Assembly (NCBI GenBank): GCA_001630475.1
Contig: KV419407.1
Coordinates: forward strand, 496,001 to 560,000
DNA: 64,000 nt
Direction of reading: 5' to 3'
Origin: Sistotremastrum niveocremeum HHB9708
Lineage: Eukaryota; Basidiomycota; Agaricomycetes; Sistotremastrales; Sistotremastraceae
The notes below the pieces were generated by a model that worked only from the letters and a program-made list of their open reading frames with translations, did no database searches and had not been told where the DNA came from. Of this stretch, positions 1-55,841 are shown in pieces. The position numbers and the translations under genes are program-made. How positions within the stretch are numbered: the stretch's first letter is position 1; every line of letters starts with the position of its first letter.

Positions 1-1636
1 CTGGAATCGATATCAGCAATACGTCTGTTCCTTTCTTGCTACCTGGCGCTCCGGGAAATCTTGTGACGGCTTATCCTGAAGGGTGAGTCTTAGATGGTTT
101 TGAGTCCAATTCTATAACTTATATCGACACGCTCCAGATATAACTCTAGCATCAGCGGCCCGAGTGGAAACATTACGATCAACGGCACTTTGACTTTCGG
201 TCAGGGCAGTGCGAATCAGACGACACGCAGGAGGCGAAAGCGTGGCTTGGGGGCCGCCGGTCTGGACTTGGGCGACGCCATCAATGTCCCTTCATATGCT
301 ATCCACAACGGCTTCGGTCGTCTTTCTACTCATGCTTTGGCTACGAACGCTACACACGCCGGCGGCTTCGCCGAGCTCGACACTCACAATCTGTGGGGCT
401 TAATGGAAGAGAAAGCCACACATCTTGCTCTTAATGACATTCTTCCCCGACAACGCCCTTTCCTGATCAGTCGAAGCACTTTCCCTAGTTCTGGCAAATG
501 GACCGGTCATTGGGTGAGTCTGTCATATCTTTTGTCGACCTCACTAATCTCATCCATTTTACAGCTTGGAGACAATAACAGCCTATGGCAATGGATGTAT
601 CTGAGCATCCAAGGCATCCTTCAATTCCAGATATTCCAAATTCCAATGGTAGGCGCTGACACATGCGGCTTCAGTACGTAACCATACACATTCATGCCTC
701 TCTTTCCGATTTTGATCTCTGGCATAGATGGAAACACGGATGAAGAGCTTTGTAATCGCTGGATGCAGATGTCCGCCTTCCATCCCTTCTTCCGAAACCA
801 CAACACCAAAGGCGGCCTCTCACAAGAGCCCTACAGATGGGACAGTGTTGCTAATGCCAGCCGCATTGCTATCGCAGCGCGATACTCGTTGTTGCCTTAC
901 TGGTACTCCTTGTTTGCAAATGCTTCCCTTCACGGAACACCACCTGTCCGTGCTCTCTTCATGGAGTTCCCGGACGAGCCAGAGTTGTTTGCCGTCGATA
1001 GGCAATTCTTGGTCGGAAGAGATATTTTGGTTACGCCAGTCCTCACTCCCAATGTGACATCCGTAGACGGTTCGTGCTTCCTTGAACTTCGACTTCAGGA
1101 CCTAAACTATCCTCGATTTAGGTATCTTTCCTGGCCAAGGTCGCGTTATCTGGAGAGACTGGTGGACGCATGACGTGGTCAACGCCAGTATAGGTGTCAA
1201 CACGACTTTGCAAGCCCCCCTGAGTCATATCAACGTCCACATCCGTGATGGAGCGGCACTTCTCCTGCACAAAGAGCCTGCATATACGGTCGAGGAGACA
1301 CGGAATGGCCCGTTCGCGCTACTTGTTTCTCTAAGCAAGAACGGATCTGCTTTTGGTTCTGCGTATCTTGACGACGGCGTGTCTTTTCCTCCGGGACCGA
1401 GCAAGACTTTGAGCTTCAACGTCGCGTCGGGAGGCTTGGAGATCTCCTCTAGCGGGTCATTCCAAGTATCACAAAAGCTCGATCAGATCACCATTCTTGG
1501 TGTCTCGAAGCCTGATTCTATCCAGTTATCAGGCACGAGCATCGGAAACTGGACCTACACCCCAGCACAGGAAAAACTAGTTATTCCAAATTTAGGTGTT
1601 GATCTCAATAAGGATATTACCCTCGATTGGGCATAA
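1..1636 (+). CDS. GH31 alpha-glucosidase, 3' part (5' end outside window)
   Basis: C-terminal part of a secreted-type glycoside hydrolase family 31 enzyme that releases glucose from the non-reducing ends of alpha-glucans or maltose. Predicted exons are 1-82, 138-513, 565-673, 728-1069 and 1122-1636, all with GT/AG borders and consistent phase. Family landmarks read in order: DISNTSVPFLLPG with YPEGY just after the nucleophile region (the nucleophile itself lies upstream of the window), RPFLISRSTFPSSGKWTGHW, GADTCGF, the segment with QMSAFHPFFRNH, and RDILVTPVLTPN. A beta-sandwich C-terminal domain follows. Several N-x-S/T sites fit a secreted glycoprotein. It converges on COG1. An arginine-rich insert near residue 40 of the visible part is typical of variable loops. 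Substrate preference cannot be read from sequence. Confidence 0.9.
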
Positions 1637-1790
1637 TGCAATGCGTCCGCAGGACCAAAGCGAGCCAGAATGTAGGAATTATGGTTATCGACGAACAAGC
1701 TGTAGTGGTCTAATCCTCCGGCCATGGGCCTGTGCGCTCTTCAGTTGTAACAATTATAATAATTAGTGAAAGATTAGTCCATTAAAAGTA

Positions 1791-4700
1791 TCATCTTCTG
1801 GATATCGAACGTGTGTTTCCAACCAATAATAAGCCGAATCTTGTACTGGGTTTGACGAGATCAATCGCAGTCGTGGTCTCTAACTCGGTGGAAGGAATTG
1901 ATAGAGGAGATACTCCTTTGTGGGATTTTGTGTGCGAACGTTTTGTGGGAGATATGGGGGGAGATTGTGAGACGAGGCGTGAAGATGGGATTAGGAAAGA
2001 CAAAGTAAGCTGTGAAGCAGCAAGACTTCGCTCGGCGACTTGGTCAATGGTTTCCTCGAGCTGTTTGATGGTTTCTGGCGTCTGTAGGCTACGCAGCTAC
2101 AAAACCTTAGTTAGGGGGAGTTCCAAAGGGAAGTATGGGTACGTACCTTGTCCAGAATATCTGTTGTCGTTGAACGCAGATTTATACCTGCGGACGTGCC
2201 GTATTCAGCCTCGTCAGCCCATAAGTCACATAGAGACTGAAGAAAGCGCATGTCGACCAGCGTCTGCATAGCATGCAAATTCCATGCGACTTCGGATCCT
2301 TGGATTTGTGGACGAATCAACTCCGCAAATTGTATTAGTGCATCTCGAATGAATGCATTCACGGTGGACGAGCTATCAGAAACATTCAACTGTTGGCACG
2401 ATCGATTAAGTTCGTATAACGAGGTTGAAAGAGCGCTAGAAAGTCGCGAGGGCATTTTCAAGTCATCTATCTCTGAGCATTAGTGACGATCGCTCGAAAG
2501 ATGAAAACGGTTCTGATTCTCACCGTGAGTAGTGGGAGCAAAGAAATGAGTTTTATATAATCGCTTCCACGATGAAGCAGCTAGGCTTGACACCCGCAAC
2601 TTCCACTTGTGGAGCGATGATTGGTGGAGCTTCTCGAGACGCTCCCTGACATCTTGAAGAAAATTAGCAATATGTCGGCACAGCTGAGAGTACCATACCG
2701 TTGATAAATTTCTCCTTCGCCACAAGCACTTGGAGAAATGGGGATGAGGTGGCAAGTTTATGAGCGAGCTGGCCAACAAAGATAACAGAATTGAATATCG
2801 CATCCGAGGATCCTGGGCCGAAATAAGACACCGCCTATAGACTTATGAAGAACTTTACCTGAAGGCTCTTCCAATGGAGTAGATATGATTTCTGTCAGGC
2901 TTTCAATGATGGAATCCAATGTAGATTGAACGTCCTGTTGATAATCCAATGTGACGTTCGGTTTTGTTTCGCTGGAATCTAATTTAAGGCAACGAGGCGT
3001 CAAAACCTGACGAAAAAACGAACACTGGAATGAAAGCCATGTCCCGCGAAATTTGAGATCCCCGTTCTTCTAGGGTCTTCAGAAGCTTTGCCACTTGCGG
3101 TGTTCGCATTGAGAGTCGTTCTCGTACGGATCCTTTGATATCTACAAGAGTTTGGGGCCCCAGAGATGCCTGAGTGATGGGCAACTCCACAGGTGATAAT
3201 AGAAAAGTTGTGGTTTCGGCCTCTATCTGGGTGTGTTAAACATGAACTGAATGAGGTATGGCGACGACAAACCCAGAAGGGGATTTTCCGGCGAGCTTCG
3301 CACTTCTTTAAGGATGCCTTCAATGGCCGCTCTGAAATTGGTAAGCAGCTGTTGAAGACTTTCTTTCCAAATGGCAGCTGTCCGAAGCTTCGCGTGCGCG
3401 TCCACGAGGCTTTCCCAAGACCACACCTCATCATCAAGGATGTTCTGTTGGGGGAGACTGAGGCGTACACGATCACGCACGGTCCATACCTCCTTGATGC
3501 TTTCAAGATCACCGAAAAGAGTCTTGACGACAGGCTCTAGTGTGCGAAGTGAATTTGACACCCAAGTCTTGAGCTGCGAATCGACGGTCTGAGGGGAAAC
3601 GACGGAAGGAGGAGAATCCGCGTCAATGTATGGTTTGTATGCACGAATGGTGTCGGGGAGCATCAGTAGGTTGGTCGACGAGGGCAAGAGAGCAAGGATG
3701 CTGTCTGTATCCGGGATGCGGTGGCCCGTCGCACGACTACCGAGTTGGATATCTTTCAGTGCCGCAGGGACGAGGCCCGGGCACGAACACGCGTCAGATC
3801 CAAATGCAGCACGTCCAACAGCTGCTGTGCTGAAGAGAATACTTCGGACTTGATTTATTCGTGCATATACCCCTTTCACAGCGCCTTTCCTGCTGGAGTT
3901 CGGCTTCCCCTTCGCTGAACCGTTCGGTTGCAGCGGCACAGATTCAGCTTGAGGTTGTAGGAAGACTTGTAAACTTTTCGTCCTCTGGGAAGTGAAAATG
4001 CCTAGAATTTCTGTCACAGTCTGCTTATCGAGTAAATGCAGAGTGACAACGGCAGCGCATATTGCTCCAGGATCAGTGACGTTCTCGCGGAACGATTGGA
4101 TAGTTCTATGGGTGATTTGCGGACCAAAATGGGAGACGTCATCCCATTGTCTTTGAATTAGAGGAAATTGTTCCTAAGACTATATTCAGCACATGATGTT
4201 CTAGCGAAGGCAGAAAGCGTACCATGACATCGATGTCTCGACCAAAAGAATTGTCATCATCATCTGAATTATCTCGTGCCAACGTATGGAAAGCCACTCT
4301 GGAAATCAAGAATAGCCAAGCAGCTTCGAGGAACGCTTTCCGTTCGAGAAGACGCCAGAGAGACTCCGGGGAATCTAGGAGCAGTTTCACGTGTGCCGCA
4401 AGTATTTGCATCGTTTTAAGCTGAGAATCTGATTGAAGTCAGTACAATCTGCGGACCAGGCGGTTGCATAGGGCTGACCTTGACGATTCACAACAGGCGT
4501 TCTGGTTTTGAAATCTTCTTGGGCCGTCGCAATGCATCCTTCTTTTATAGCATCCAATGCTTGAACAACTCTCTGAGAGGATTTGGCAATGTCGATTATG
4601 GAAGTCGAGGCTTGCAACAAATCACGGTAACGTTCCCTGCACTTCCCGGGACACCGATGTTGAGAACAGACTAATAGGATCAGCAGATGCGACGTACCCA

Positions 4701-5035
4701 ACCATAAGCCGCAACTCTTCCTGTTTAGCATCTGCTTCAGTCCTACACTGCACTGTCAGCGGCGTTGGAGGCACCGGATTCCTCTGCTCTTACCTCAATC
4801 TAGTTTGAATGCCCCGTATCTCAGATACAGTGAATTTAACGAATATTTCATTGGGATCCATTGTGCTGAGACTAGGATCGAGGACACTCCGAACTTGCTT
4901 TGCGGGGAAGTTGGATGCCGTGCTCGACTTGGGATAGGACGCTGAAGGAGGTCCAAGGCTTCCGTTCCGCGCAGGAAGCGATGAGGTATCCAGGCGTTGA
5001 GGTGGCACTCGCTTTGCTTTCACCGGGCTCAGCAT
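1791..5035 (-). CDS. COG1: Conserved oligomeric Golgi complex subunit 1 (COG1)
   Basis: Multi-exon minus-strand gene for the COG1 subunit, a lobe-linking part of the COG tether needed for retrograde vesicle traffic within the Golgi. The N-terminal exon (4790-5035) contains DPNEIFVKFTVSEIRGIQTRL, the start of the Vps51-like helical region. The next exon carries CRERYRDLLQASTSIIDIAK, and 4139-4411 has KLLLDSPESLWRLLERKAFL followed by AAWLFLISR, both COG1 hallmarks. A long exon (3223-about 4100) holds the middle helical region. Smaller exons run to a C-terminal RFGLLLVGNTRSISRR just before the stop at 1791. The start could be the first Met (5035) or the Met at the DPNE motif; the residues between are low complexity. 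Internal exon borders between 2000 and 3220 are less certain. Confidence 0.85.
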
Positions 5036-5341
5036 TGTCGAAGCACGGTCGCCCAGCGAGTGAAGCCAACGTCGTGGACTGGTTCGGCTCTGTGAATTTT
5101 AAGTCCGCTGCGCATGTCATGACTTCGTGAATTAGAATAGCGATAGGATTACAAAAGTCAAAAAGAACTATGAGAATACGACATGCTAAAAAATAAAACG
5201 CGATTTCCTCCCGAGGATGTGGATTGGAGACATGTAGGATATACAATGAGTGCCAATGCAATGCTCTACTGCAGTTTTCCGGCTAGGAGTCTCGGGACCT
5301 TATGTGCCCAGAGGATCCAAGAGAAAACCAAATGAATAGGG
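5036..5341. promoter_or_regulatory. Spacer upstream of COG1
   Basis: 306 bases between the COG1 start and the end of the next minus-strand gene. It must contain the COG1 promoter. No open frame with splice signals and no recognisable element was seen. Confidence 0.4.
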
Positions 5342-6682
5342 TTAATCATCTTCCTCCTTTTCGGGATGCGTCTGATGCAGTTCGGGGTCTGAAGAAGAAG
5401 GCATGGGCTGTGCCGTGCTCCCTGCAGCCGGCGATGGCCTGAGAGGTTTCGAGGTCGTTGCTGTGGTTGAACTGGCAGGGGTGGTGGTTGCTAAACGATG
5501 GTCAAGAGCTTTTAAGGCCAGAGCACTATCGGATCATTGAGATTTCACACAAACAAATTGAGTCTCTCCATAATGCTTACCGTCTGCGCTCTGCTTCAGC
5601 CCGTGCACCCCCTGGAAGGGGTGCATACCCGCTCTCAATATCAGGCGCAGTCCCTGAGAATGGACGGACAAGTCTGAGCTGTACGCAGAGCTTGTACACG
5701 ACATTTGACAAAATCCCGACCGGGTAGCTTGTAATCTTTCAGCAAATAACTCAGCTGATCGGAAAGAAAGGGCACGCACTGCACGAAAGGAGGGAACCAA
5801 TGAACAAACGCAAATGTCTCACTCCGGTCACCATATGTTTCAACACCCCCAGGCGTATCAACAGGTGTCCGTTTGTAGAAACGCAAATATGTCCAGGAAC
5901 TCAGCCATCCAAATTGAATGAGAATGAATGGCGCTTGAAATCCGAGAACACACATAACGTTGGAAAATCCAACATAAAGCATGGGTAGACGCTGTTGTGT
6001 AATATCAGATTCCAAAAGTTCCGAAGGATATTGGAGATGAGATACCTTGACTCTGATTTTGAACACGCCGAATAACTGGATCTGGTGTTCGGGTATGATT
6101 TGGGTGAACGCGACCAAGACTGCGGTTTGTAGGGCCATTTGGCCTCGATACTCCATGCCGTAGCTTTAAAGTGACGGTAAGCTACCCATACGACAGAAGA
6201 ATGGCTGAGGAGAGCACAAACAGGAAGGTCTCAGCATAACCGAAGGCGACGAATTCAATCCAGCTGAGGACGAAAGAGATCACATTCCCTACGACGATGT
6301 TGATGACGATGAACTTGATAGTTTCTGTAGTTCCCCATAATCGCTCAAGGTATCGCAGAGAAGCCGGCATAAAGATGAGTGAGAATATGAGCTATACGCC
6401 GCGAAAAAATCAGCATCTTTGTCAACAGGAAGCGCGAAAGATGAGACTCACCTCTATAATACTGATCTCTACGAAGCCAGCAGAAAGAAAAGTCCATGGA
6501 AACCAAAAGCTCAGGCCAGGAATGACTGTCAAATAAGGCAACGGTGTAGGCAAAGGGCCTGTTGACTGTCGCCAATGGAGAAAAAAGTACAAGGAAGACA
6601 GGAGAAGCAGCAAGGCTGTATACAGCTTTGTTGCGGTCGGCGTTGAAGAGATGAACTGCAATGGTGATGAAAGAACGGCCAT
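5342..6682 (-). CDS. TMEM115-like (DUF1751) Golgi membrane protein
   Basis: Polytopic membrane protein of the TMEM115/DUF1751 family, a rhomboid-like group without protease residues, known in animals as a Golgi protein linked to retrograde traffic. Exon 1 (start at 6682) encodes a hydrophobic segment after SSPLQFISSTPTATK, then LTVIPGLSFWFPWTFLSAGF. The next exon has SLRYLERLWGTTETIKFIVI plus two membrane segments. The third has EYRGQMALQTAVLVAFTQII, the family stretch FGWLSSWTYLRFYKR and the signature GDRSETFAFVHWFPP. The C-terminal tail is polar and acidic, ending in HPEKEEDD, as usual for the cytosolic tail. Position next to COG1 puts two Golgi-trafficking genes side by side in tandem. Catalytic Ser/His of true rhomboids was not seen. 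Confidence 0.85.
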
Positions 6683-10498: not shown

Positions 10499-12931
10499 AT
10501 GCTCATATCCCTGAAGCAGCTCGGTCGCTGCACAAGAGCACAGAACGTTGCACGCTCGATAAAATGGAGCAGACGGCGATTATCTGGGACAACTAGTCGA
10601 CGTGCTGCTCTCCTAGATGACGACCTAATCACTTTGTTCGACTCTCCTTCACGCAAACCCAGCACTTCCATCCAAGCTCGCGGTCTCTTTCTAGATGATC
10701 GCATAACACACCCTGGGATGTTCCAAAGGCTTGTGGACGACACGCTTGTTCGTGCAGATCTCTTACTGCGAAGAATTCTCTCTGCCGAACACTCGCGGCC
10801 TGAATTATTCCAGGTTGTGAAAAACTTGGACAGGCTCAGCGATCTCTTGTGTGGCGTTATCGACTTGGCTGAATTCGTGCGGAATGCACATCCTGATGAA
10901 GAATGGGTTTATCACGCTAATTCAGCCTATGAAAGCCTATGTGAATTCATGAATACCTTGAATACGCACGAGGGCTTAGATAAGGTAAGATCTTCGATAT
11001 CGAATATCTTCGAGAAAGGAAGCTGAGTTCTCAATGGAGGTGCTTGACATAGTCCTGGGTGACACGACCGTTACTTCTCAGTTATCGACGGAGGCGTTGA
11101 AGACTGCACACATCTTTTCTGCCGACTTTGCACGCTCTGGACGAAACCTTCCTCCGCATCAGCGCGGCCGTTTCGTGACATTGTCATCGGAAATCCTGAC
11201 TCTGGGGAGAGCTTTCTTGAATGAAGCATCTGCTCCTCGCCCACCCATCTCAATTCCTGCTTCCCAGCTTCAAGGATTCAAATCGCATACTAATCGCTTC
11301 TCCGGGAAGTCGTTAACCATCTATCCTGGATCTGTCCAAGCGCATGATATCATGAAGTCATCTACCAATGAATCGCTGCGGAGAAGGCTATATGTTGCCG
11401 CCCGGTCGAGCTCGGTAGCTCAGGTTGAAATTCTGGAACGCCTTCTCAGAGCCCGCGCCGAAATGGCGAAGCTTGTTGGGTTCGATAGTTTTGCGTCGAT
11501 GACTCTGGATGACAAAATGGCCAAGTCTCCCGGTACGTCGGATTCATGTACCGCCTTGTTCGAAGATCTTCTCACGTCAAGCAACCTCAGACAATGTCAC
11601 CAATTTCCTCAGTGTTCTGGCAACCCACAATCGCCCGTATGCTCTCAACGACATTGAGAAGATTCGACAAAGAAAACATACCGTACTCGGGAACTCTCAA
11701 TCCCACGACATCCATCCTTGGGATCGGGATATTTACCTGCCTCCTCAAAGTCCTGAAAGTCCTATAATAATGCCCCCTCTCACCGTAGGCCGTGTCTTTA
11801 GGGCGCTCTCGAGGTTATTCACCAAAATATACGGGATCAGCTTTCGGCCTGTGAATGTATCGTTGGGCGAAGTATGGCACGATGATGTCCAAAAATTAGA
11901 AGTCGTCGACGAAGCAGAAGGTGTTATCGGATGGATATATACCGATCTGTTCTCCAGGTCTGGGAAGCCGAACGGTGCAGCACATTATACGGTCCGCTGC
12001 TCGCGGCGACTTGATGAGGATAACCTGTCAAACGATTTACCCATTACCACCGATTCTTCCCGAACTTTAAGGCCGCCTGATGTGGCACATCGAATACGAG
12101 GACATGACGGGCTATGGCAACTTCCCATTGTCGTACTGATGTGCGAGTTCTCGAGATCATCTCTGAACCACGGCCAAGCCATATTGGATTGGCAAGAAGT
12201 TTCAACTTTGTGTCATGAGATGGGTCACGCTATGCACTGTACGCATCGAACTCTCCTGTTTTTGACGAGGTGCTAATCTATTCTTGTATGTAGCTATGAT
12301 CGGGCGGACGGAATACCACAATGTCTCTGGCACTCGTTGTGCCACAGATTTTGTAGAGCTGCCTTCGATCCTCATGGAGCATTTCCTAACCTCACCAACC
12401 GTCCTCGCGCTGTTCCACGATTCTGAGCCAGATCTACCCTCGAGCTCCATCAATAGCGCACATCCCCAGCAGAATGTCTCTGCTCTTGACACGCACGATC
12501 AGATCATGCTTGCGAGCCTTGATCAGGAGTATCACTCTCGAGCAGCCCTGGAGCCCGGCTTTGACTCCACCGCAGTCCTAGCTGCTTTAACAGATCGACA
12601 AGGCGTCTGGCCATACGTTCAAGGAACTTCGTGGCAAACTCAGTTTGGGCACCTATTCAGCTACGGTGCTACTTATTACTCATACTTGTTCGATCGTGCA
12701 ATTGCATCGCAAGTTTGGTCCACTCTGTTCCAAAATAATCCCCTGGATCGAGAGAAGGGCGAGAAGTTCAAGCGCGAGGTGTTGAAATGGGGTGGGGGGA
12801 AAGACCCTTGGGAGATGGTCAGCGCAGTGCTTGATGATCCTCGCCTTGCGTCGGGTGATGCACAGGCAATGCGTCAGATTGGACAATGGCGTATAGCGTA
12901 TGACGTGTCCTCGGCTGGTACTCATTTATAA
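10499..12931 (+). CDS. MIP: Mitochondrial intermediate peptidase (MIP), mating-locus flank
   Basis: M3-family zinc metallopeptidase that removes an octapeptide from imported mitochondrial precursors. Exons 10499-10984, 11040-11532, 11591-12238 and 12294-12931. The N terminus [16 protein letters not shown] with following Arg-rich residues looks like a matrix presequence, so the second in-frame Met is preferred over 10442. The catalytic zinc motif HEMGH sits in [13 protein letters not shown] and spans the exon 3/4 junction. The downstream M3 landmarks [12 protein letters not shown] and [19 protein letters not shown] are present. Length of about 750 residues fits fungal MIPs. In agaricomycetes MIP is the standard border gene of the homeodomain mating locus, and here the F-box and HD genes follow at once. 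No sign of decay. Confidence 0.95.
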
Positions 12932-13072: not shown

Positions 13073-14740
13073 CTACAAAAATTCCACAACCCACAACCCT
13101 TTGGCGTCCAGAAAGCATAGCGTACCCTCCGCATCGTCCCAGTCCAAGAACCTAGCACTCAAAATATCCATGTATCCTTGAATCTGAATTTCTTTCGGTT
13201 CCCCCAAGTGCGTCGTCAAACCCATTAGTTTCCTACATTGGTCGTGTTCTTCAATCCAGATAGGCCGACTTCCATATCGACCAAGACAAAAAGTGAATAG
13301 GATTCCGTGTTCGGGGTCCCTAGGAAAACGGCTGCCATGTTTATGCCATAAATATTGAACGGGAAGACTAGTTTGGAGAGTCTCCGTATCGGGAAATGGA
13401 TCAAATGTCCGGACTATAACTTTGTGCTGGCCTGTGTTGTCTCCGATGTGCGACACACCGAGTATTGAAAGCTTTCGTGAGCCGGTGGGTGCATCGGGAT
13501 TGCGCCATAATTTGGAGAAACGAGTTTGATACATCCCCTCTTCTTCGTTGTCAGGTTGCAATTGCTCACCGCCAGTATGTATAACGGTGGGCTGGAATGA
13601 GACTTGGGGAGCGGCAACATTGTGAAAAATAGGATAGAGAACATCCGGAACGCGGAATACACAGACAGCGGGAAGATCGCGGCGTTCTTCATGAAGGATA
13701 ATTCTTTGGTCAAGGACTTGCATTGTCGGCCAGCTCCAGAACTGCTCGATGTCGATGGTGAGTGACAAAGCCAATAACCGCCAGAAATACTTACGCCAAT
13801 CACTTCGACAGGTATTTGAACCATGGCAGCTGTTTTGTTTTGCCAATTCATGATGCAAACGATGAATGTGGCGAGAGGCTGGGGTATGGGTTGCTGGTCA
13901 AGTTCGCAGGAGTACGCCGCCACAATATCGCCTTCGATGGACACGATATAAAACGGCATTTGCCAACATGTCTCCGCGACAGGGACAAACCGAGCTCCTT
14001 CTCCAGGGACGTCTGTGTCGTCTAGAATCTCGATTCGAACAGCATATAGTCGGTGTGTAGGGTATCTAGAATAGGATTAGGCTGGCTATCTATGCTAGTC
14101 TGTGCTAGATTACTCACATCTGATTCTCGATTTGGTAGTGATGTTCAATGCTAACCGCAAGCATGAAGTGAAGACCCTGATCTGCATGGCAAACATCGAC
14201 GTCAAGGCTTTCAAGCTTGACGCCGCCATGATGCCATTGGCTGAGCAAGATGCCGGTTCTCACATCCCAGCATGCGAGTCCGCCGTTGTTGGTGACGGTA
14301 AGCACCTGCTTTGCCCCTGGCAAGAGCCTCAACATGGAAACCTTTTCATTCTTGGTCTCGGGAAACTCGAGAAGACGTGGCTGCCTTGCTGGTTTTGTAA
14401 CTTTCGATCGCCAGGAACGGTCGAGGATGAGGCTTCTAAGGGCTACGTCTCTGAGTTCCAATGTCTGCAGTGACGAATGGGGACGTAGGGGTGGGTAGGG
14501 TAAGGGTAGTTCTTTGCCCAGAGTAGCGGTTACAGACAGCCATATCGCTCTGCTGGACCTGATGAGTGTCCTGAGATGTCTGGAGACCTGAACGAGATGA
14601 GCGTCAGCAAGCAAGCAAATGCGGATACGTCCAAGCGTCGACTGTACCTGTTCAACTGCAAATATGTCCTGCAGTTCCAAGTAGCCAAACAGCTCGAATA
14701 GAATGTCGCTCGGAAGATTGTTAAAACGGATGGTCGACAT
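13073..14740 (-). CDS. F-box protein inside the mating region
   Basis: Minus-strand gene between MIP and the homeodomain genes. The start at 14740 opens with an F-box (FNNLPSDILFELFGYLELQD then IFAVEQV), expected to bind Skp1 and recruit targets to an SCF ubiquitin ligase. A region with WD-like flavour (LRLLPGAKQVLTVTNNGGLA then CWDVRTG) follows and continues through exons at about 13800-14060 and 13073-13790. F-box proteins of this build are abundant in agaricomycetes. The MIP-facing 3' end lies 141 bases from the MIP stop, so the two converge. Its 5' end and upstream DNA exist in a second, degraded copy at 16690-17220. Reading frame appears intact. The target is unknown. Confidence 0.75.
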
Positions 14741-15083
14741 AGTTTCAAGTCAAGTGTCAGCCAGATCTCGGATTTCGCGCGTCCATGACCATCGAAATGC
14801 CAATGGGAACTTATTGCGTGCTGAGAAGCCAACCCAGCGTCCAAAATCAACGGAAAAACGGAACCCGCTCCAGCTCAGCATACACATCGATTATACCACT
14901 TTCCCATATATATGCATGCTTTAAAAAATACAGAAATAATCGCATAGGGGTTTCCCGAAAGAATGTTACAGATTGGTCTCCGTCATTACCCAATCGAGAT
15001 AATGATATTCAGGATTCGAATTTATCCCTTAGATAATGATATTGATAGTGCTATATCTCCTCCTGTGCAATCGGTGGTGACTC
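14741..15083. repeat. F-box promoter region, first copy of a duplicated segment
   Basis: Spacer between the F-box start and the solo HD2 stop. Together with the F-box first exon, it aligns by eye with 16700-17220. Shared landmarks in the same order and orientation are gtcgacat at the start codon, gctgagaagccaac, and further out gctatat followed by cctgtgcaat. The match is imperfect (substitutions and small gaps), so the duplication is not recent. Confidence 0.7.
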
Positions 15084-16554
15084 TCAATGATGTGCTATCA
15101 CTCGACGCCGCCTGGCTCCAGTTGAGCGGTGACGGCCACTGCGCTGAGTCGCTCCAAGTGCCAACCCCTTAAAGGAATGGAACAACGACTTGTAGTCCTG
15201 CTTTGTCGGAACGTAAGAAGAGGGGTTGTGCACGCCAGTTCGTTTCCAAAGCGTTTGAGGGAACGAGAACAGCTGTTTGTCATCCACGGTGGATCTCGTG
15301 GCGCTCGAGAATGGGCGATCCTCGACGTCAAATGGCATATAAACGCTCGGATAGGGACGATTTATTGGATTATCGTCATTGGGACCGAGAGGATTGAATA
15401 TATCCAAGAACGTCGAGGAATCCGTCGAAAAGGCAACAGGGGGTGTATCAGCAGGCACGTCGATAATCTTTTCGAAATAGGATCTATCCGTCCTGGTCTC
15501 CTGATTCAAGAGAATGGGAAGACGTTGATCGCCCGAGCCAGCCGCGGGCTCCATCGAGGTGTCTTTGACTTCCTTGGCGAATGGGTGAGATGTGGCCTCG
15601 GAGAGCGAGGTCCGGCCATCCTCGTCGTGAGTTTCTGGCGCCACCTTTGGCTCTTTCCCCGTACTCAGGCTGGGTGAAGTACCAAGCGACTGACGACCGT
15701 TGGGTGGATCGGTCTGACCATCAGGGAGCTTGACATATCTTTCATCACGACGTCTGGATGCAAGTAAGTGATTTCTTAGCCAAGGTGTTTTTCCCAAACG
15801 ATAACGACGATTCTGGAACTACAAGGATAAAGTCAGTATGACCCGAGATTCTCGCAGGCATATTGCGAGAATAGTACCCAAGAATGAACCTGGGCAAAGG
15901 TCAAGCCAGTCGTATTCGCGAGATTTCTCTTTTCAAGTTTGTTCGGATACGGGTTCTGTTGGAAAGATGCAGAAAGTACGGCACTCGTTTGCACACCCTG
16001 GTGGACTGCTCAATTTTTACATGGAGGTGCAAGGATTGCGCACTTACTAAACTCTTCCCCCTTCGCGGGGGACGATTCGTGACCGTTTCTTCATTGGTAG
16101 GAGGGATAGCTTCATGAACCAAGCGTTCTGGTTCCGAATTTGATTTTGGCTCTACCTTGATTGATTCGGCTTGGATGTCACCAGATGCCTCTGCCAAAGT
16201 GCATTGTTCTAACAAGGGCTCTTGGGAGTCAAGACGGCTTGTTGTAACAGCAGGTTCTTTATTCCTGGTTATCTGCATATCAACCGCCTGTAAAAACACC
16301 TTGTAAACTGAACGGAGCTCGTTCGCGTTGGACGATGACAAGCCAGTTTCCACAAGGCTCTGATACAAGCATTCGGTGGATGGGAGACCAAATCGGGAGG
16401 CAAGTGCTGGTGCGAGATAGTTTTCAGAAATAATCAAAGATGAACCTTGAGATGCTGCATCGGAGGAATGTTTAGGAAGGAGGTTGGGTATGGTTAGAGG
16501 CATACTAGAAGTAGACCAGTCCAAGAAATAAGCGCGAAGTAGATTGCTGAGCAC
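15084..16554 (-). CDS. Homeodomain HD2-type mating protein, solo copy
   Basis: HD2-class homeodomain transcription factor. Predicted exons: 16048-16554, 15878-15997 and 15084-15818, with a 50-base intron before the homeodomain core and a 59-base intron between Trp48 and FQN. Joined, the homeodomain reads FQQNPYPNKLEKRNLANTTG, then LTFAQVHSW and FQNRRYR. Trp48, Phe49, Asn51 and Arg53 are all present, so DNA binding looks possible. The N-terminal about 140 residues should be the specificity and dimerisation part (RFGLPSTECLYQSLVETGLS). The C-terminal 245 residues are Ser/Pro/Thr-rich with a basic RRRR near the end. Start may be 16554 or the next Met at 16503. It has no divergent HD1 partner on either side, unlike the next pair. 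Confidence 0.85.
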
Positions 16555-16689
16555 CGAACCCCAGTCTTGTTCTCTAGATATCCAACCTGCGACCGATCGG
16601 GCATTATACTAGCACAAGGTCTGTCCACTGTCGTACAGGTCTTCCCACGCAAAAAAAAGCAAGGTGAGAAGGGTATCGAGGGCCGTTCG

Positions 16690-17110
16690 TTTGAGAGCCG
16701 TAGGACCGCTGTGCCAAGCATAATAAGTGAGCTGAAGTGTCTGGGGACCTGAAGGAGGCACCGTCGGTCAGCATCAGCAAATTTATTAAGCGCAGGAGAT
16801 TATGCAGATTCGTCCAGGCGTCGACCGGTACCTGTGCAACTGCTATCTACTCAGGTTCCAAGTCTTGGATACTAGCTTGAAGAGATTGTCACTTGAGAAT
16901 TGTTCAAACGGACGGTCGACATATATAGTTACGAGTCAAGTGTTGATCAGGTCTCAGATTTCGCGCTTCCATGTTTCCATATAGGGGCCTAGTACCGTCT
17001 AATACACCACCACTACCGTGATCATCGAAATGCCACTGGGAACTGATTGCGTGCTGAGAAGCCAACCTAGCGTCCAAGACCAACGGAAGAACGGAACCCA
17101 CTGCGGATAT
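16690..17110 (-). pseudogene. Decayed partial copy of the F-box gene 5' end
   Basis: This stretch resembles the first two exons, first intron and upstream DNA of the F-box gene at 14740. The copied start codon lies at 16920-16922 and opens MSTVRLNN, against MSTIRFNN in the intact gene. The F-box region then contains a stop after about 14 codons and small length changes, so no F-box is made. The match continues through the copied intron (tctggggacctgaa at 16739, tctggagacctgaa at 14579) and the gtcgacg segment. No further 3' part of the F-box gene is present. It lies between the two HD2 genes, on the same strand as both, which points to duplication of a block rather than independent insertion. 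Confidence 0.75.
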
Positions 17111-17388
17111 CTTCCCTATAGTATCTTCAATTTTCGAAAATTACGACTCAAAGGAACAACTTGCAAAGGGATGTCAATATGCATGTTGCTATATTTATGC
17201 CTGTGCAATTAGGTGGCGGGTCCTTTTCAGAAGTCTTCTGATAAGGACAACTATATTAATAATTCTGATCCACCATTCCAATCACGTCTCTGCAACTCTG
17301 GGACGTATACTACAAACAATAATATGCTAATAATGATAATAGTGAACAAGATATCACGGTCTACGCGACGAACCTGAAAAGAGGCCGC
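17111..17388. repeat. Outer part of the duplicated spacer
   Basis: AT-rich non-coding DNA next to the HD2 stop at 17389. The element gctatat followed by cctgtgcaat at about 17190-17210 matches about 15050-15072, near the solo HD2 stop. This suggests that the duplicated block reaches to, or through, the HD2 gene. The stretch at 17310-17345 is simple AT-rich sequence with repeated taat. Confidence 0.55.
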
Positions 17389-19056
17389 CTAATGCGTTGA
17401 TCTACGCCGTTTAGACGGACGGTCATCAAACAACTTCACTGGGGTGAACGAATCAACCGAATGTGAATGTGAAATCAGAGTGGGGGAGGAAGGCTGAGAT
17501 TCTAGACTTTCTTCGGACGAAGAGGCCGACAATTGTCGAGCTCCCAGATATTGATTTGGCAATGGAGAAATCCGCCTGTGCAATGGCGTGCGCCACTCGC
17601 GACTCGATTGCGGATTAACCTCGTCTGGCGAGGAGGAAGAATCTGATAGCTGATCCACACTGCGTTTGCGCGATCGGCGTGAATCACGTGCGTACCTAGC
17701 CCGCGATCTCAAACGCAATGCAGACAAAGGCTTTAACAAGCTGTCGACGTCGTCTGCAAATGGCGATAACGAAGCGTGCCCTGATGGTCCGTTTCGTCTC
17801 CATATCGGCTCAGGGAAGACATAGTCATCGATGTCGCTCTCAATTTCTGCTGATGAACGGGGCCAATAAGCCAGTGGGAACGTTCTTTGCTCGCGAGGCG
17901 CGTGGTTATCAGCAAACTGTATATGTGATCCGAGAGGATCAAATATACTTAGAATATCCTGGCAATGCCCAAGACGAGTAAATGGGTGCGACATAGCATC
18001 CGAAGGAAATGGAAAACAGGATAGCGACGAGGGTGTTACCCGGGAGGGAGAGGATGGGGACTCGAAGGGCAAAAGAAGGGAAGATGATCCTATGGGGGGT
18101 TCCACGGGGTCTTCTGCAACGTCTGAGTATTCTTCCTCGTCCCACGAATACTCGTCCATTGAGTCATCTATCTCAAATAAGACAGGCCGGGCCTTGTCTT
18201 TAGGTGCGCCGTACCATGAGTCGATTGGCAAAAAATCTGCCAAGCGAGGATTATATGAATGCAGCGTTTTCAAAGTTCCATGGATAAGGGTGTGCATCTC
18301 CTCCTTCGTGGCCGACATATGCGAGCGTCGTATAGGTTTCCCTTCCTGAAAAGCACGTGTACGACGATAACGGGCATTTTGGAACTAGAAAATCAATCAA
18401 TCAATGCACTTGGCACGATCAGTCGAGACACGTACCCAAACATGGATCTGCTTGTAAGAAACGCCTATGAGACTGGCGAGACATTCCTTGTCTTCTCGGC
18501 AAGGTAAAGGAGATAAGGAAAATGCGTGGTCGAGCAGTGGCGCCGCTAACTTCTGAAGGAAGAATCAGTGCTCTGAAAGATCGAAGATTTGGGAGGAAAA
18601 CACAACCATCATATTTGAAGTTTGAGACGCTCTCCCATGAGGCAGGCGAAGATCAACACAGAATCTTGACTTTGCGTCTCCAACAAATTTTCTCCTAGCA
18701 GCTTTCAACGTCTGGGCGTACATATCGCATGCACGCTTGGTGAGAGCTCCAATTATGTCGAGACTCCGCGATGAACGAGATGTGGAAGTCAGATCACATG
18801 CGGCGTTTTTGACGTGATCAAACAAAGCTTCTCTCAGATCTGTGGCCTCTCGTATGAAAATGTTTGACAATTCGAGGGCTACGCTTTCAGGCGTTCCATA
18901 ACTCATGAGATGAGCAGTGATGTGCTTTGGCATGGGTAGGGGATTTGTTCGCATATCGTGAATTGAAGCAATTGAATCCTTGCGATGTGGTATAAGAGCA
19001 GAGGTTTTCTCGAAGAGTATGCTGGCCTCTTCGATAATCCTGTCACAAGCGTTCAT
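17389..19056 (-). CDS. Homeodomain HD2 mating-type protein of the divergent pair
   Basis: HD2-class transcription factor that should dimerise with HD1 from a compatible nucleus. Predicted exons 18658-19056, 18436-18552 and 17389-18384. The homeodomain reads KLAAPLLDHAFSLSPLPCRE, DKECLASLIGVSYKQIHVW, then FQNARYRRTR after an intron at the Trp48/Phe49 junction. Asn51 and Arg53 are kept; position 52 is Ala. Frame is continuous through a 105-base intron whose donor is the least certain call; without it a TGA interrupts. The N-terminal 133 residues are the variable recognition region. The 300-residue tail is acidic and Ser/Pro-rich with bipartite basic clusters (RRSRKRS, SKRRRS). It is transcribed away from HD1 across 163 bases. 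Confidence 0.88.
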
Positions 19057-19219
19057 GGGGGGCGAGAAGACGGGGTATTTGTCCTTGTTGATAACTTGGG
19101 GTCGACTACTGTTCTTTGTGACCGATGGCTATTGTGCCCCGAAAAGGCAAGAGAAGGCCTGGAAATTTAAGTTCCGACAAGACTTCATTCTTTCACCCAC
19201 TTGTCAACGCTCCTTCAAA
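19057..19219. promoter_or_regulatory. Shared divergent promoter of the HD2/HD1 pair
   Basis: 163 bases between the two start codons. Compact divergent promoters of this kind are usual for HD pairs, where the HD1/HD2 dimer may feed back. A pyrimidine-rich stretch (cattctttcacccac) precedes the HD1 start. No known operator was identified with confidence. Confidence 0.6.
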
Positions 19220-21056
19220 ATGGAGTCCTTGAACGAAAACATCCGCCATCGCCTACTCTCGATTGAACGACAATTCCTCACTGTCTCTCTTTTGGATGAA
19301 CCTATGCTTGAGCAATTTCACACAAAATGGACCTCTCTGTGGCTTGAGTTCAGCTCGGCGCTCGACAAGGGGTGTTTGGACATCGACGTTGTCAGATTGG
19401 CGCATAACGTTGCAACGTCCGTGAAGATAATATCCACCGAATATTTGAAGGTGTCAAAGAACTGTCGGGATATGCGGACACGGCACATGCAGTCGGTCCG
19501 CCGAATTCTCGAGGAGGAGGAGGCCATAAATCATTCTAATCGGCGGCCACCCAATTCAGCCTCAATGGCCGCTCTACCCAGGGCTGTTCAGATCGCCGCC
19601 GCCGACTTCCTACTGTCCCACATACATCACCCTTTTCCAACCCATTCAGAGCTGGAGGCTCTTGCACCAGATCACCCAATTGAGCAAATTTCTGCTTGGT
19701 TTACGTCGGCACGTCGACGATTGGGGTATTCTCGCCTCGCCAAAAAATACTGTCAAGGAGACCGCAGGGTTCTTCGTCGATACCTTAGTCATGTACTTGC
19801 CGGCGCACCCGCCGTCGAACTATCTCTGGAAGCAGAAAAGGCCATTCAAAGGTTGAAGCAGGACGCGGCGGGCTTGATGCGCGAAGTCAGGTGAGGCAAA
19901 ATTTCTAACGTCTTGGTACATTGGAGTCCGTTTCTCATGAATTCAATCTTAGGAACCTCGAGCCAGAGCCAGAGTGCTCAAGACACCTGTATTCACCCCA
20001 ACCGGCAACCTGCAAATCGGTGTCGGGAAGTCATCATTTTTCTTACCCAGGAGTGGGGTTGCGTGGATTGCGGTCTGCTTCGTCGCAGTCCTTCGACTCA
20101 GACGCGACAGTGGTGTCGAGTAGTCGTTCTGTTTCTTCATCCTCGAGCAGTGCTACGCTTACCGACCCAACAATCAGCGAAAGGTGAGGGTATTCCGCCC
20201 CATCTTTCTGTTTCCGGCCATACTTATCAGTTGTAGTAGTTCTTCCTCAAACATTGAAGACAATGTAATGGACCCAGAAAGGATTGCAAGTCCTAAAAGC
20301 CGTAAGCGTAAGCGCGAGGCGATTCCGGAGCCACAACCGTCGCCGAAAAGACACCGTACGCTCTCCCACCGAAGACATGGTAGAACTCGTCATCGCGGGG
20401 GTCATGAACACGACACACAAGAAACGTCATGGGTTCAGCCACTCAACCATGATAGTGCTGAACATTCCACATCGGAGCATCACTTATTTCCCGCCCCGAT
20501 CTCTTCTCCTACCCATGCGTCGTCTTTAGAATTTCTTGGACCGACGCCACCTCTAAGTGATGAGGCGTTCCAAGATATACTGCAACAATTTAGAGCTGAT
20601 TGGTCGACGGAGCCTGGTCTCGGCCTTACCCCCGAGTTGTCTCGACTCGAAGGCGAGATCACTCCGAATGTTTGGACGATACCAAAAAATGGGTTTGACG
20701 AGTTTGAATCACTTTTCGCTTGGTCAGGCGAGTTGGCCCCACCCATTGTTTCAACGCGAGACATGGATCACGATAGCGCCCCCCTTCCCTTCTTCTATTC
20801 AGGAGGCCAGAGCGTGGTTGAAGATTGGTTTTCGCGCATTCCGTCCGAAACTGATGTAATGGTGGACGACTCATCACCCAACGGTTCTTCATCCGTCCAG
20901 ACAACGCCGTCCACATCTCCGTGCACCATCCCAAGCTCTTTTGTCTCTCCACCACTTCCTATAGATCAGGCAAACAAACGAGCTCAACTTCTTGCTGAAC
21001 TTGAGAAAAAGCGCGAAGAAATGAAACATCTGGAGCTTGAATTGGCATATGCGTAG
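19220..21056 (+). CDS. Homeodomain HD1 mating-type protein
   Basis: HD1-class (TALE-like) homeodomain protein. Exons 19220-19890, 19953-20183 and 20231-21056. The N-terminal about 110 residues form the variable helical recognition region. The homeodomain spans about residues 118-180: RAVQIAAADFLLSHIHHPFP, a loop, then IEQISAWFTSARRRLGYSRL. Trp48, Phe49 and Arg53 are present but position 51 is Ser where Asn is nearly universal. A strong bipartite nuclear signal follows (KSRKRKREAIPEPQPSPKRH), consistent with HD1 being the partner that carries the dimer into the nucleus. The tail is Ser-rich, acidic and probably activating, ending in a short coiled coil (LLAELEKKREEMKHLELELA). Frame is fully open. 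Confidence 0.92.
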
Positions 21057-21493: not shown

Positions 21494-24400
21494 TCAGTTA
21501 GGAGGACTCGACGGCTGACTGTTGGAATCCCAAGAACCCATCCTAAGGAATCGAGCAAGAACCTCCTCGGAAGTACGTTTGAAAACGTCTACCCCACGAG
21601 CAGGATCCCATACTCGAGCAGCGGGGCGCTTCGGCGACAATGGTTGCAACACAATCCCAGGGCCGAGGGCTGGTAGGCCGGATCTGAGAAGTGATTGACC
21701 TTCGGGGGGTGAGATAGGTCCAATGGATGATTGTTGTGAGAGCACTGTATCGTCGGAAGAAAGGCGAGGAACAGGAGCAATTATTGAGCTCGTATTTGAG
21801 GCCGTGCTGGATGAAGCGGAGAGGTTCGGCGTTGTATCTAGTGCATCTCGAGAGGTTGCAGCAGATATAGTGCTAACCGACGGGTTCGTTCCTATAAGTG
21901 GCTCCGTCATCTCTATGCGCGATAGCACTGAAGTAGGAGCGCTGGCGAGTTGTGATGCTCTAGCCGCACTGCTCTTCAAGATATCAGGTGCCTCAACAGC
22001 ACTTGGTGTTCCGACCATCGCATCTCGTTCCTTCTGGAACGAAGTGGGACCAGCATTCATCGTGAGATGCATAGGAATGTTTCTATTTCGAACAGCCTTG
22101 ACGGACGATGAAGTACTGGAAGTAGACGTTTTCGCCGACCTTGCACTCGAAGGCGGCGTTATCTGTGCTGGCGGCGGGGGCGGCGGGGTGGCGTCGACAG
22201 GCTTGGAGACCTGGACTCCTCGATCTCGAGTAGGTGTCTTGACGGTCTGTACACCCTGAGTCCGATATATCTTACCAGTGGCTTTGTCCCTAGTCTGGGA
22301 ACTTCCACTCACCCGCCTTGCTCTCTTCAGAGATTCCGCGCTCCCCGCCAACGAAGTATCGCCACTTGACACACTCTTCGGAGTCTCTTCTTCGTCATCG
22401 ATGAATTCATCTCCTTCGTCCTCATCGTCGCCTTCTTGACTGTTTGTCTCAACCCTTTCCTCCCATGTTTTGTACCCGGGTGGTCGTCCTGCACTATATC
22501 TCCGACCACCTCGACGCGACTGCGGAGGAGTCTGCAGTTCTATTGGAACCGGAGCAGGAGTCGGGCGTTGTAGACGTGATGCATATCGTTGGATACTTGG
22601 CACACTATCCCAGGCATTTCTAAAGGAACCCGAACTGGGGAACCCAGCTGGAGGACTTTGTTGAGGACTTGCCGTCTGCACATGTAAAACAGGTTTAGGC
22701 GCAGGTGCCGGAGGTGGAGAAGGGGGCTTCGGAACGATGAAATTCGAAACTGCCTCAGGAGGGGGTGAGTCCGCTTTTGGGAAGACGCGAGCGGGTGCAT
22801 GTCGAGGTTTCGTCTCCCAAGGGAAGACCTGGCTTACACGAGAACGGTCTGGCTGCGGGTCGTTGTCATTTCGCGGAGGAGAATGATGTCCATGTGATGC
22901 ATGGTGGTGATGTCTGTGAGGCTGATGGGTGACATTGGAATAATGACCTTCCCGAAGCAGGTGCTCCGGGATTCGAGAAGGAGGCGGAGCAACGAAGAAC
23001 CCTGCAGAATCCGTGGCAGTTGTAGCACTTTCGGGCTTGCCTGGTTCCTGTTCGTGTTTACGGTGTGACTGATCCCAAACATTAGCGAAATGTTGAGTCC
23101 CTTGGAAGGCATCAGACGGAGGGGGATTCGACGGGGGAGGATCAACGGCAGCGTTCCAAATTAAGAGAGGCGGAGATATGGGTCGAGGAGGAGGTTCGTG
23201 ACGATGTTCTTGGCGATGTTCTGGCGCGGGTTCATGATGCTGCGACTGTCTCAAAGGAGTAGGGGCAAAGATGGAACTGGTGCGTGAAGGCGTCGGAGAA
23301 GGTGTAGCAGGAGGAAGTGAATGCGTTCGAAGCAGAGGCGCAGGGGGCACTTCTGCGGGTCCAGGAGTAGGCAGGGTATCCATCCGAACGGGCGTCGATG
23401 ATCCGCCCACTACACTTCGGACAGGGAGCCGCAGGGGGGTGCTAGGAACTGCTCTTGGAGTATCAGAATTATCATCGTCGGGTTCTCCATCTGGCCCTGT
23501 ATGCGTCTGAGTTTCAGGTTCTGGTGCAGGAGGAGGGGTGGGTATTCTAGGTCTCATCAAATCAAATCGACCTTCCAGTGGCAAACTATAATATTGTCCT
23601 TCTCCAGACTCCTGTGTTGTGTGCGAAGGCGGGGTATATGCAGGAGCATGATGGGTAGTTGGTGGATCTGGAGCGCTGTAACCATGAACGGGACTTCTGG
23701 GAAGGGGGATTGCTTCGGGCGGAGCCAAGGACTGATAGACTGGCATGGGTGAAGTAACGCTGGCAATCCCTGTCAAGGCAGCTTGACGAAGCTCATCTAA
23801 ACCCATAGGTTGATTGGAGCTGCTGCTAGATCCGGGACCTGAATCCCAAGCAGCCTGATACTTCTGCACTTGGAAAGTTTCTTGGGCGGGAGGTGGACCT
23901 TCCGAGCGATAGTGTCCGTCATAGACTCCATACCAACGGTCCACCAAATCATTATAAGCATAAGACGACTGCTGTTGCTGCTGCTCGGATTGAGGAGCAG
24001 TTGACGGCTCTGAAGTAGAAGTCGAGGATGATTCTCGATAGGGTAAGGAAGACCATGGCTTATTAGGACCTATAAAGTGTATTGCCTTGATCTGGGAGCC
24101 GAAACGGGTATATGCTGGAGCGTAACTGGCGCCCGGATCAGACGAAGGAGGTGGCACGGAACTTAAAATACTCACGTGTACGCCGCAGTGGGTGTTGTGT
24201 TATATGTGAAACTTAAACGGTGCCAATTCGACCCTCGCCATTCATTCAGCACACCTTGGTCACCGCCATCCCAACTGCCTTTGGAACGGACAAGGGACAT
24301 TATGTCCTGGAACTTGTCTTCTCCCGGTTCAAGAAGCATGACGCCAGAATTGAATATATCTGGCCAGCCAACGTCTGGGACGGCCGCGAATTCATGTCGC

Positions 24401-51894: not shown

Positions 51895-53250
51895 AGGTTG
51901 AACAACTCAAATGGTGGCGCAAATGTTGAGGACTAGAAAATAATAAGCAGGTCGTTATTAATTGTGAATAGGCATCCCCACCCACCAAAGGGAGAAAGTT
52001 CACGTATGCCGCCTGGCAGTCCCCTTTAACACACGCAACATGGATGACCACCAAGAGACCTAAAATCGGATGAGGTGTTATCCAATAGTAGTACCATTAG
52101 TCGAGTGACAGCGCACTATCAGGGACCAAAATGGATTGGTGGGTGCAGTGAACGTCGAGCAAAAGCAGTTACTGCCAGTGGTCGGTGCCGAGATAACCGA
52201 AGTAGTCACGGTACTAGTTGCTCTTGACTCTGATAGCGACGAGCTCAGGCTTCACTGCTCCCCGGAAATCTCAATGGAAATGCTCCAATAATGGCACTGC
52301 TAATTGTTTCCACCTGGAAAATTTCCCCTTTGACGGTCATTCTCAAGACGGATTTCTCTTACCTGTAGGTAGTCCTGTGTCTTCAAGGGCAGCGTTCACT
52401 CTAGCTGTAATGTCACGGTGGAGCGAAGGCAATTCATTCTCAGCTCGTGTGTGCTATAAGTAACAGCCCAACTTTTTGTCTTTCGCTCTATCTCTTCTTC
52501 TCCCCTCTTTCTTGCTACGGTTGATTCCCGCCATCGACTTCTTGTTCTGCCGCTCCTCCACGTCCTGGTTTGATGTATACTCCGTACAACTGCGGCGACA
52601 GGGTTACTGTCGTGAACGAGCTGGGTTGCATTGGCTTGGTGGGCGGGGGGGATGTCGAGCGTGTTGTCGTCTATGAGGTACGTGGATGATGGAAAATGGA
52701 CCCGTCAAATCCAAACGCATACTAGGTACGTCGTCGCTTTTCTTTTTCAATAGGTCTTCTAACAGCAAGTATCTTCCTCTAGCTCCATGGAACTTTGAGG
52801 CCGCACTAGTATACGATAGTTGCGCAGTCTTGAAACCATGCGAGCAAGGCATGCAAGGATATCGCAAGATGACGCTTTCGCGCGGGCTACCAAGACATCG
52901 CCGAGTACATCGCCAGTGCAATGGGAAGCATAGCACATGATGCAGGATCTTCTCCCATGAAAGCGAAAGCAGACGCTTTCCCCATGGTGGTTACGGTGAG
53001 TTGCTCGCCGTTCTCATCCTTTCCAATTGGCGAAATGAATGGGCAGTTCGGAAATGGGGATGGACCACGGGACCAGTGATCCGTGTCCTTTGCTGGGTTG
53101 GGGAATGGAGGTAGCAATAGAAAGTGCAGACCGTCGTTGGGAGCAGCGCCTTGGTTGCCAGTGAGCGTTCGCAAGCAGCGTTAGACTGGGGTCCTCCCCA
53201 ATCAGAAGGTCTACGATGCTTCACAGGACGTGACCCAGTCTCTACCGTAT
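51895..53250 (+). repeat. Tandem duplication, copy A
   Basis: First of two direct copies spaced about 1,360 bases apart. Shared landmarks in order: ggttgaacaactcaa (51897), gtgaacgtcgagca (about 52149), aaggcaattcattctcagct (52427), a TATA-like gtgctataag (52452), a pyrimidine-rich leader, then a nearly identical block of about 125 bases around the ATG at 52573. The open frame from that ATG gives MYTPYNCGDRVTVVNELGCI and ends at a GT donor after 35 codons (52677). What follows is less conserved and I could not join it to convincing further exons, so it may be a small gene or a gene relic. Confidence 0.75.
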
Positions 53251-53276
53251 CATCTAAGACGAAGGAGCCCCAAAGC

Positions 53277-54807: not shown

Positions 54808-55841
54808 ATGCAAGAGAACGGCGTCAACGGAAAGCGACGTTCGCTATGGTTGTATCTACGACTAAGGCTCACAGCTGCTCTGCTCAGATTCCCTATTCAC
54901 ATCGTCAGAGCACTCGGACTACGGTCTCACCTTGGTCTTCTTCCAAAGTCCATCTCCATCAAACCTAGCTACACGACTTTCATCACCTCTTCCCAAGAGC
55001 CATCTCGTCGTATCAAGCTCAACATCTACTATCCCCCAGAGTCTGTTCTGAAGGACAATCACAAACTACCAGTTCATATCTCCTTTCATGGCAGCGGATT
55101 CGTCGTTCCATGTCTTGGCCAAGACGCGGAGCAATGCGCCTGGATAGCCAACACTGTCGGTTGCGTCGTTATCGATGCCGACTATGCAAAGGCTCCGGAG
55201 CGACCATTTCCTGCCGCATATGACGACGCCAAAGACGCCGCGTTATGGGCTATTTCTGAGGCTCGCACCACTGGCAAATGGAATCCAGAGAAAGTAACGA
55301 TAGGAGGATATTCGGCAGGTGCTAATCTGGCGTTGGCAGTCGCGGTGACGCTGCCCCAGAACTCGATCAAGTCGGTCATCGCCTGGTATCCTCCTACGGA
55401 CTGGGTTAGTCGGCGAGAGAAGAACGAAGAAGTAGTTCCTCTGCCCAAGCATCAACCAGGCGTTGAACTTGGCCCAAAATTGAGACGATTCTTCGACCAG
55501 TGCTACGCACTGCCTGAGCTCGATATAACCGACGTCAGGATTTCTCCTGAGAATGCGGACCCATCCCGTTTTCCACCTGTCCTCTGTCTTGTAAGCGATT
55601 CAACTGCACTTGTATTGGGCTAAGCTGACGTGCGGGCCAGGTTGGAGACCGAGATCCCTTATTTGCGGACAGTCTCTCACTAGTCGAGAAGTTGCGCAAG
55701 GCAGGCCGCGACGCAGAGACGTTCATCGTCGAGAATGCCGGGCATGGCTGGGACAAGTTTTCCAAGAGCCCTCCGTACTCTGAATTGCTTGTGGAAGCTA
55801 TGCACAAGATAGCAAAACGCTTGCAGGACGTTCACGCCTAG
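54808..55841 (+). CDS. Alpha/beta hydrolase (HSL-like carboxylesterase)
   Basis: Two exons, 54808-55590 and 55641-55841; about 327 residues. The N terminus has a hydrophobic segment (LRLTAALLRFPIHIVRAL) that may anchor it to a membrane. The oxyanion-hole motif is HISFHGSGFV, HGSG in place of the more usual HGGG. The nucleophile elbow is GGYSAGANLA (G-x-S-x-G). The acid is probably the Asp in VGDRDPLFADS and the His in NAGHGWDKF, so the triad is complete. This is the hormone-sensitive-lipase-like family of small-ester hydrolases. Natural substrate unknown. Confidence 0.9.

Follow-up and report, generated by a model that had tools for sequence, protein, structure and literature searches.

A broken second copy of the 5' end of an F-box gene lies between two homeodomain (HD) genes of the HD2 type in Sistotremastrum niveocremeum HHB9708 (contig KV419407.1, positions 496,001 to 560,000). 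All comparisons were made within this one stretch of 64 kb (64,000 nucleotides, hereafter the window), whose content points to the HD (A) mating locus of an agaricomycete. The order along the window is mitochondrial intermediate peptidase (MIP)-type gene, F-box gene, HD2_1, F-box remnant, HD2_2 and HD1, and the locus holds one HD2/HD1 pair (HD2_2 and HD1) together with one extra, unpaired HD2 gene (HD2_1). We hypothesize, with a probability of roughly 0.55, that the remnant is the scar of a mis-aligned recombination between two mating haplotypes, which would have set a foreign HD2 gene beside a resident HD2/HD1 pair. Gene order and trees have mostly supplied the arguments on how extra or unpaired HD genes arose in agaricomycete A loci. 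In the present locus the scar is itself legible, as a non-functional piece of a flanking gene at the place where the extra HD2 gene would have been joined, and it allows the rearrangement to be dated independently of the HD2 genes.

A decayed F-box end between two HD2 genes

Comparison of the whole window with itself by BLASTN revealed two repeat pairs at E < 1e-3, one of which is the F-box pair (14619-14869 and 16802-17102, 67.5% identity over 305 columns, E 5.9e-29). The repeat claimed by the initial annotation, with its order and orientation, is therefore real, and the diagonal on which that claim had been made to depend was found. The score of the pair was 340.5, compared with a best value of 76 among 338 tiles from the rest of the window, and its local alignment score was 363, compared with a maximum of 80 among 300 dinucleotide shuffles. 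Homology is solid between 14545-14872 and about 16700-17105, and identity outside gaps is 79% in the exon 2 part, 82% in intron 1, 84% in exon 1 and 85% in the 145 bp upstream. The best conserved part is an 87-bp block in the upstream DNA. A coding origin of its conservation was rejected, since the nine differences counted by hand show no codon periodicity.

The duplicated span had originally been given as 14540-15080 and 16690-17220. Colinearity can indeed be followed to about 15080/17220, but past 14872/17105 it is only patchy and includes a 33-bp island; in the less reliable stretch up to 15072 the identity outside gaps is 74%. On the HD2 side, 14886-15083 and 17121-17388 were not significantly similar when taken alone (64 of 500 shuffles scored as high). 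Because the island shares the diagonal of the F-box tract, the colinear block probably reaches, patchily, to the 3' ends of the HD2 genes. By chance, 0.005-0.007 segments of this score would fall in the rectangle along the diagonal, whose limits were set once the island was already known. Ungapped segments scoring at least as high outside the F-box tract numbered 2 or 3, depending on the scoring scheme (13.0-19.1 kb, spacings of 300-6000), and consisted of the island itself and HD2-HD2 matches. On the other side, clear homology of the remnant stops at about 16700, within exon 2; similarity past 14545 is marginal (14300-14545 against 16504-16705, equalled by 20 of 500 shuffles).

The second copy of the F-box end is a dead pseudogene. 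Its exon 1 is frameshifted, the frame from the ATG at 16922 ending after 16 codons, and 6-14 gap events, depending on the alignment, fall in the transcribed remnant of 196 bp; intron 1 retains its splice sites. Like footprints of the mip1 type, it lies inside the HD locus as a decayed part of a flanking gene that keeps the orientation of the original. Both the second copy and its decay are direct observations. The first F-box gene is intact: its models have no internal stops, an alternative acceptor of the last exon gives 502 aa, and the first 188 aa match Pfam F-box-like (6.5e-9). The coordinates of all features are collected in Table 1.

Table 1. Features of the HD locus and its F-box repeat (positions in the window)
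Feature	Position	Strand	Details
Mitochondrial-intermediate-peptidase-like gene, 3' part	11509-12931	+	Two open reading frames (ORFs); Pfam Peptidase_M3
F-box gene, intact	13073-14740	-	Four exons: 14740-14648, 14587-14118, 14065-13795, 13741-13073; 500 aa
Duplicated tract, copy 1	14545-14872	-	Exon 2 start, intron 1, exon 1 and upstream block of the F-box gene
Colinear island, 33 bp	15039-15071	-	Just past the HD2_1 stop codon; 25/33 identical to 17177-17209
HD2_1, unpaired HD2	15084-16503	-	Exons 16503-16048, 15997-15878, 15818-15084; 436 aa; open frame
HD2_1 5' flank	16504-16700		Meets the F-box remnant at about 16690-16705
Duplicated tract, copy 2 (F-box 5' remnant)	16700-17105	-	Exon 1, intron 1 (16831-16749), ~45 bp of exon 2, upstream block
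Conserved upstream block, 87 bp	17016-17102		90% identical to 14783-14869, gap-free
Colinear island, partner	17177-17209	-	Matches 15039-15071
HD2_2, paired HD2	17389-19056	-	Exons 19056-18604, 18552-18436, 18384-17389; 521 aa
HD1	19220-21056	+	573 aa; divergent from HD2_2

Divergence of the two HD2 genes

According to the initial annotation, each F-box copy is succeeded on the same side by the 3' end of a minus-strand HD2 gene; gene models and Pfam matches bear this out (Homeodomain, 2.9e-12 for HD2_1 and 1.7e-7 for HD2_2). The recognition helix reads WFQNRRYR in HD2_1 and WFQNARYR in HD2_2 (18360-18440), with an intron after the W codon in both. As modelled, the first intron of both genes is in phase 0, the donor in HD2_2 having been picked by hand among several candidates. 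HD2_2 and HD1 are divergently transcribed from a 163-bp intergenic region, the classic arrangement of an HD1-HD2 pair; HD1 matches Homeobox_KN (4.6e-6) and Mating_N (1.1e-4), and the Pfam matches of the pair exceed the curated cut-offs. The homeodomain score is weaker in the paired HD2_2 than in the unpaired HD2_1.

HD2_1 was probably retained by selection while the F-box remnant decayed, because its frame is open over 1308 nt and its codon-usage score is positive in frame 0 only. The open frame is observed directly. It continues for 35 codons 5' of the first ATG (16504-16608) without a start codon, and an earlier N-terminus of HD2_1 may have been lost.

The two HD2 proteins share 105 identical residues over 401-403 codons (26%), and as DNA the genes are only marginally more similar than expected by chance (4 of 200 shuffles as high). 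At identical residues, fourfold degenerate third positions differ in 33 of 52 cases in a global alignment, 19 of 34 in a local one and 28 of 50 with MAFFT (56-63%, compared with about 75% expected at saturation). Between the F-box copies, 62 mismatches stand against 297 matches, a difference at 17% of 359 aligned sites; the count covers the exon 2 part, extended to 14490, intron 1, exon 1 and 14741-14885 upstream. A fifth, distal segment (38 mismatches, 109 matches) was left out of this count, its homology not being reliable; with it, 100 of 506 sites (20%) differ, still far below the HD2 value. The contrast between the HD2 fourfold sites and the F-box tract is significant (Fisher P 2e-6 with the local and 2e-11 with the global alignment).

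Fourfold sites should not be driven by selection on amino acids, and yet they differ far more than the F-box tract. The HD2 genes therefore appear to predate the separation of the F-box ends, provided that conversion has not rejuvenated the latter. The F-box end is 79-85% identical, whereas beside the HD2 genes identity barely exceeds that of shuffles. Intergenic DNA and intron 1 of the pseudogene should be under equally little constraint, and the drop in identity toward HD2 would thus support the older divergence of the HD2 pair, which is itself seen directly. The tandem duplication of a block, as first proposed, stands in one respect only: the stretch that starts in the F-box gene and extends, with gaps in the similarity, to an HD2 3' end is present twice in tandem, in the order described. 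The HD2 pair appears too diverged to have been copied from a single template in one simple tandem duplication, and it was therefore probably two already different HD2 genes that were brought together.

A proposed unequal exchange and its alternatives

A flanking gene that is alike beside HD genes that are unlike is the pattern found between haplotypes, which is why we favour unequal exchange over plain duplication. The starting point would have been two haplotypes that shared the order F-box - HD2 - HD1 and differed strongly in their HD2 alleles. In a recombination out of register, exon 2 of the F-box gene of one haplotype would have become attached to the DNA 5' of HD2_1 in the other, giving the product F-box - HD2_1 - [F-box 5' end] - HD2_2 - HD1, in which the F-box end was left as a scar; the reciprocal product would be one HD2 gene short. 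We infer the origin of HD2_1 in another haplotype, and the direction of the exchange, from this arrangement. Because direct repeats of the F-box 5' end now flank HD2_1, the gene should be open to loss, or to passage to other haplotypes, by recombination between the repeats. Three predictions follow: some haplotypes should lack HD2_1, a reciprocal product with one HD2 gene missing should exist, and the HD2_1 protein should not pair with the resident HD1.

An HD2 protein that paired productively with the resident HD1 would leave the strain self-activated, and HD2_1 is for this reason presumed not to do so. The first exon of HD2_2 was predicted by AlphaFold to be largely helical to residue 131, whereas that of HD2_1 was predicted to form three short helices followed by coil, and residues 121-150 of HD2_1 are proline-rich and polar. 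If these models hold, the N-terminal pairing region of HD2_1 may be weakened, which would account for a foreign HD2 gene being tolerated beside HD1. A more speculative extension, which we regard as doubtful, is that HD2_1 is an exchangeable mating-gene cassette, able to loop out or to move into any haplotype with the same F-box gene and kept either for an added mating specificity or because, lacking a partner and weakened in its dimerisation region, it does not set off self-activation.

HD2_1 may by now be using the duplicated upstream block of the F-box gene as a promoter. In this 87-bp block, which was chosen for the comparison after the fact, 7-8 of 87 sites have changed, compared with 36-51 of 187-192 in the dead transcribed part (five alignments; Fisher P 0.0008-0.024); the number of gap events did not differ significantly between the two (P 0.11-0.68). 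The leader of HD2_1 contains several upstream start codons, contrary to an efficient use of the F-box block as promoter.

Several points weigh against an exchange between haplotypes. Homology falls abruptly at 14872/17105, from 9 to 3 matches per 12 bp, and is patchy up to HD2, a picture that the copying of an F-box fragment by itself would equally produce. The 3' coding ends of the HD2 genes are unlike as DNA (15084-15400 against 17389-17800; 319 of 500 shuffles as high). The donor haplotype of HD2_1 is not seen in the single sequence of the window, and an identity of 26% cannot tell alleles from paralogues. HD2_1 may be an old paralogue, since presumed paralogues in Agaricus bisporus are about as unlike as HD2_1 and HD2_2 (PMC8305134), and the allelic HD2 proteins of two Volvariella volvacea haplotypes, given as 49% similar (PMC3602538), are less diverged. 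The right-hand break is undefined, because the 5' flank of HD2_1 is unlike the HD2_2/HD1 intergenic region and an HD1 remnant is missing: 16504-16705 matched 19000-19300 no better than shuffles (295 and 383 of 500 as high on the two strands), by which a common 5' flank of both HD2 genes was rejected, and a tblastn search with HD1 gave nothing outside the HD1 gene better than E 4. Finally, the AlphaFold models of the first exons are single-sequence runs of low confidence (predicted local distance difference test scores, pLDDT, of 46 for HD2_1 and 61 for HD2_2).

Much of this would also fit an ancient pair of paralogous HD subloci, in which an old second HD1-HD2 pair near MIP survives only as HD2_1 and some 400 bp of the F-box 5' end were copied later, separately, between the HD2 genes. 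The deep divergence of the HD2 genes, the abrupt end of the well-conserved tract at 14872/17105 and the absence of DNA similarity between the HD2 3' ends agree with it, as do the paralogous subloci with absent partners described in A. bisporus (PMC8305134) and the unpaired HD2 gene located 201 bp from MIP in Flammulina velutipes (PMC3140503). The copied piece would, however, have to land by chance in the orientation of the original and, like it, immediately beyond the stop codon of an HD2 gene, and the island on the same diagonal carries homology beyond the fragment. We consider this history possible, though unlikely. Less likely again is an old tandem duplication of [F-box 5' end + HD2] within one haplotype, after which conversion kept the F-box ends alike while the HD2 genes diverged. 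Order, orientation and uneven identity would all be explained in this way, including the gap-free stretch of 87 bp at 90% identity, but conversion would have to span the whole remnant up to the junction, and the result would still have to be a pseudogene, with 6-14 gap events over 196 bp.

That the assembly joined the two haplotypes of a dikaryon head to tail, the second F-box end being simply the other allele, is improbable. The difference between the F-box tracts is about what diverged alleles beside a mating locus might show; the second F-box end, however, is broken, frameshifted and gap-rich rather than a working allele, while the first gene is intact. Plain tandem duplication of one template, with HD2 copies that then diverged under diversifying selection, would give the order and orientation of both elements. 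It is disfavoured by the fourfold-site test, in which HD2 sites at conserved residues differ by 56-63% compared with 17% of F-box-tract sites, and we hold it to be very improbable.

Comparison with known loci and further features of the window

The initial annotation offered the duplication as a direct mechanism for the multiplication of HD genes. This is not wholly new, as the mip1 footprint of A. bisporus (PMC8305134) and the xHD2 gene of Trichaptum (PMC8970355) have been read similarly; the kind of event is already reported in a few mushrooms, and here the scar is particularly legible. A. bisporus H97 likewise has two tandem HD2 genes and one divergent HD1 gene, but with mip1 on the HD1 side, whereas here the peptidase gene lies on the HD2 side, beyond the F-box gene. 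In A. bisporus JB137-S8, a 207-bp, 77% identical footprint of mip1 was suggested by the authors to derive possibly from a duplicated complete HD1-HD2 pair. That footprint is of the 3' end of mip1; the present one is of an F-box 5' end with upstream DNA and stands directly between HD2 genes. In the same paper, DNA identity is described as dropping steeply as one passes from mip1 to the interior of the locus, and the HD2 genes b2-1 and b2-2, with 26% identity and almost no DNA similarity, are suggested by the authors to be alleles (PMC8305134).

Trichaptum xHD2 is also an extra HD2 gene adjoining an HD pair, and falls in a different allelic class from the neighbouring aHD2; its authors read it as a recent duplication with transfer to other mating regions (PMC8970355). 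Its coding sequence is truncated, whereas HD2_1 is open throughout, and a footprint of a flanking gene is not mentioned in the excerpts of that paper (PMC8970355). The matA3 locus of F. velutipes resembles the present one in having a single HD1 gene and two HD2 genes, one of them unpaired and close to MIP, but it is split into two parts 73 kb apart, which was attributed to inversions (PMC3140503). Haplotype-specific duplications of HD1, or of HD1 and HD2, are known from matA of Pleurotus ostreatus, where, unlike here, extra HD2 genes accompany extra HD1 genes in the excerpts of that paper (PMC13108863); the number of HD genes also varies among haplotypes of Hypsizygus marmoreus (PMC8686365). 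An F-box gene flanking the A locus was not met among the matches listed for the open-access literature: the term "F-box" occurs 0 times in the main text of the P. ostreatus paper (PMC13108863), and its occurrences in PMC3602538 and PMC3192844 are unrelated to the mating locus.

The gene beyond the F-box gene matches Pfam Peptidase_M3 in two parts (E 1.3e-49 at 12284-12928 and 4.3e-41 at 11509-12273). The MIP gene is the usual flank of the HD locus, and we infer the name from family and position. On the other side, where basidiomycete HD loci carry a beta-flanking gene, the ORF beyond HD1 (21497-24175, minus strand, 893 aa) had no Pfam match at E 0.01. The second repeat pair of the self-comparison is a larger direct repeat (52027-53260 and 53375-54595, 75.5% identical over 1286 columns). 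It is located just before an alpha/beta-hydrolase ORF (54808-55623; Pfam Abhydrolase_3, 6e-33), and the longest stop-free stretch seen in either of its copies is 128 codons.

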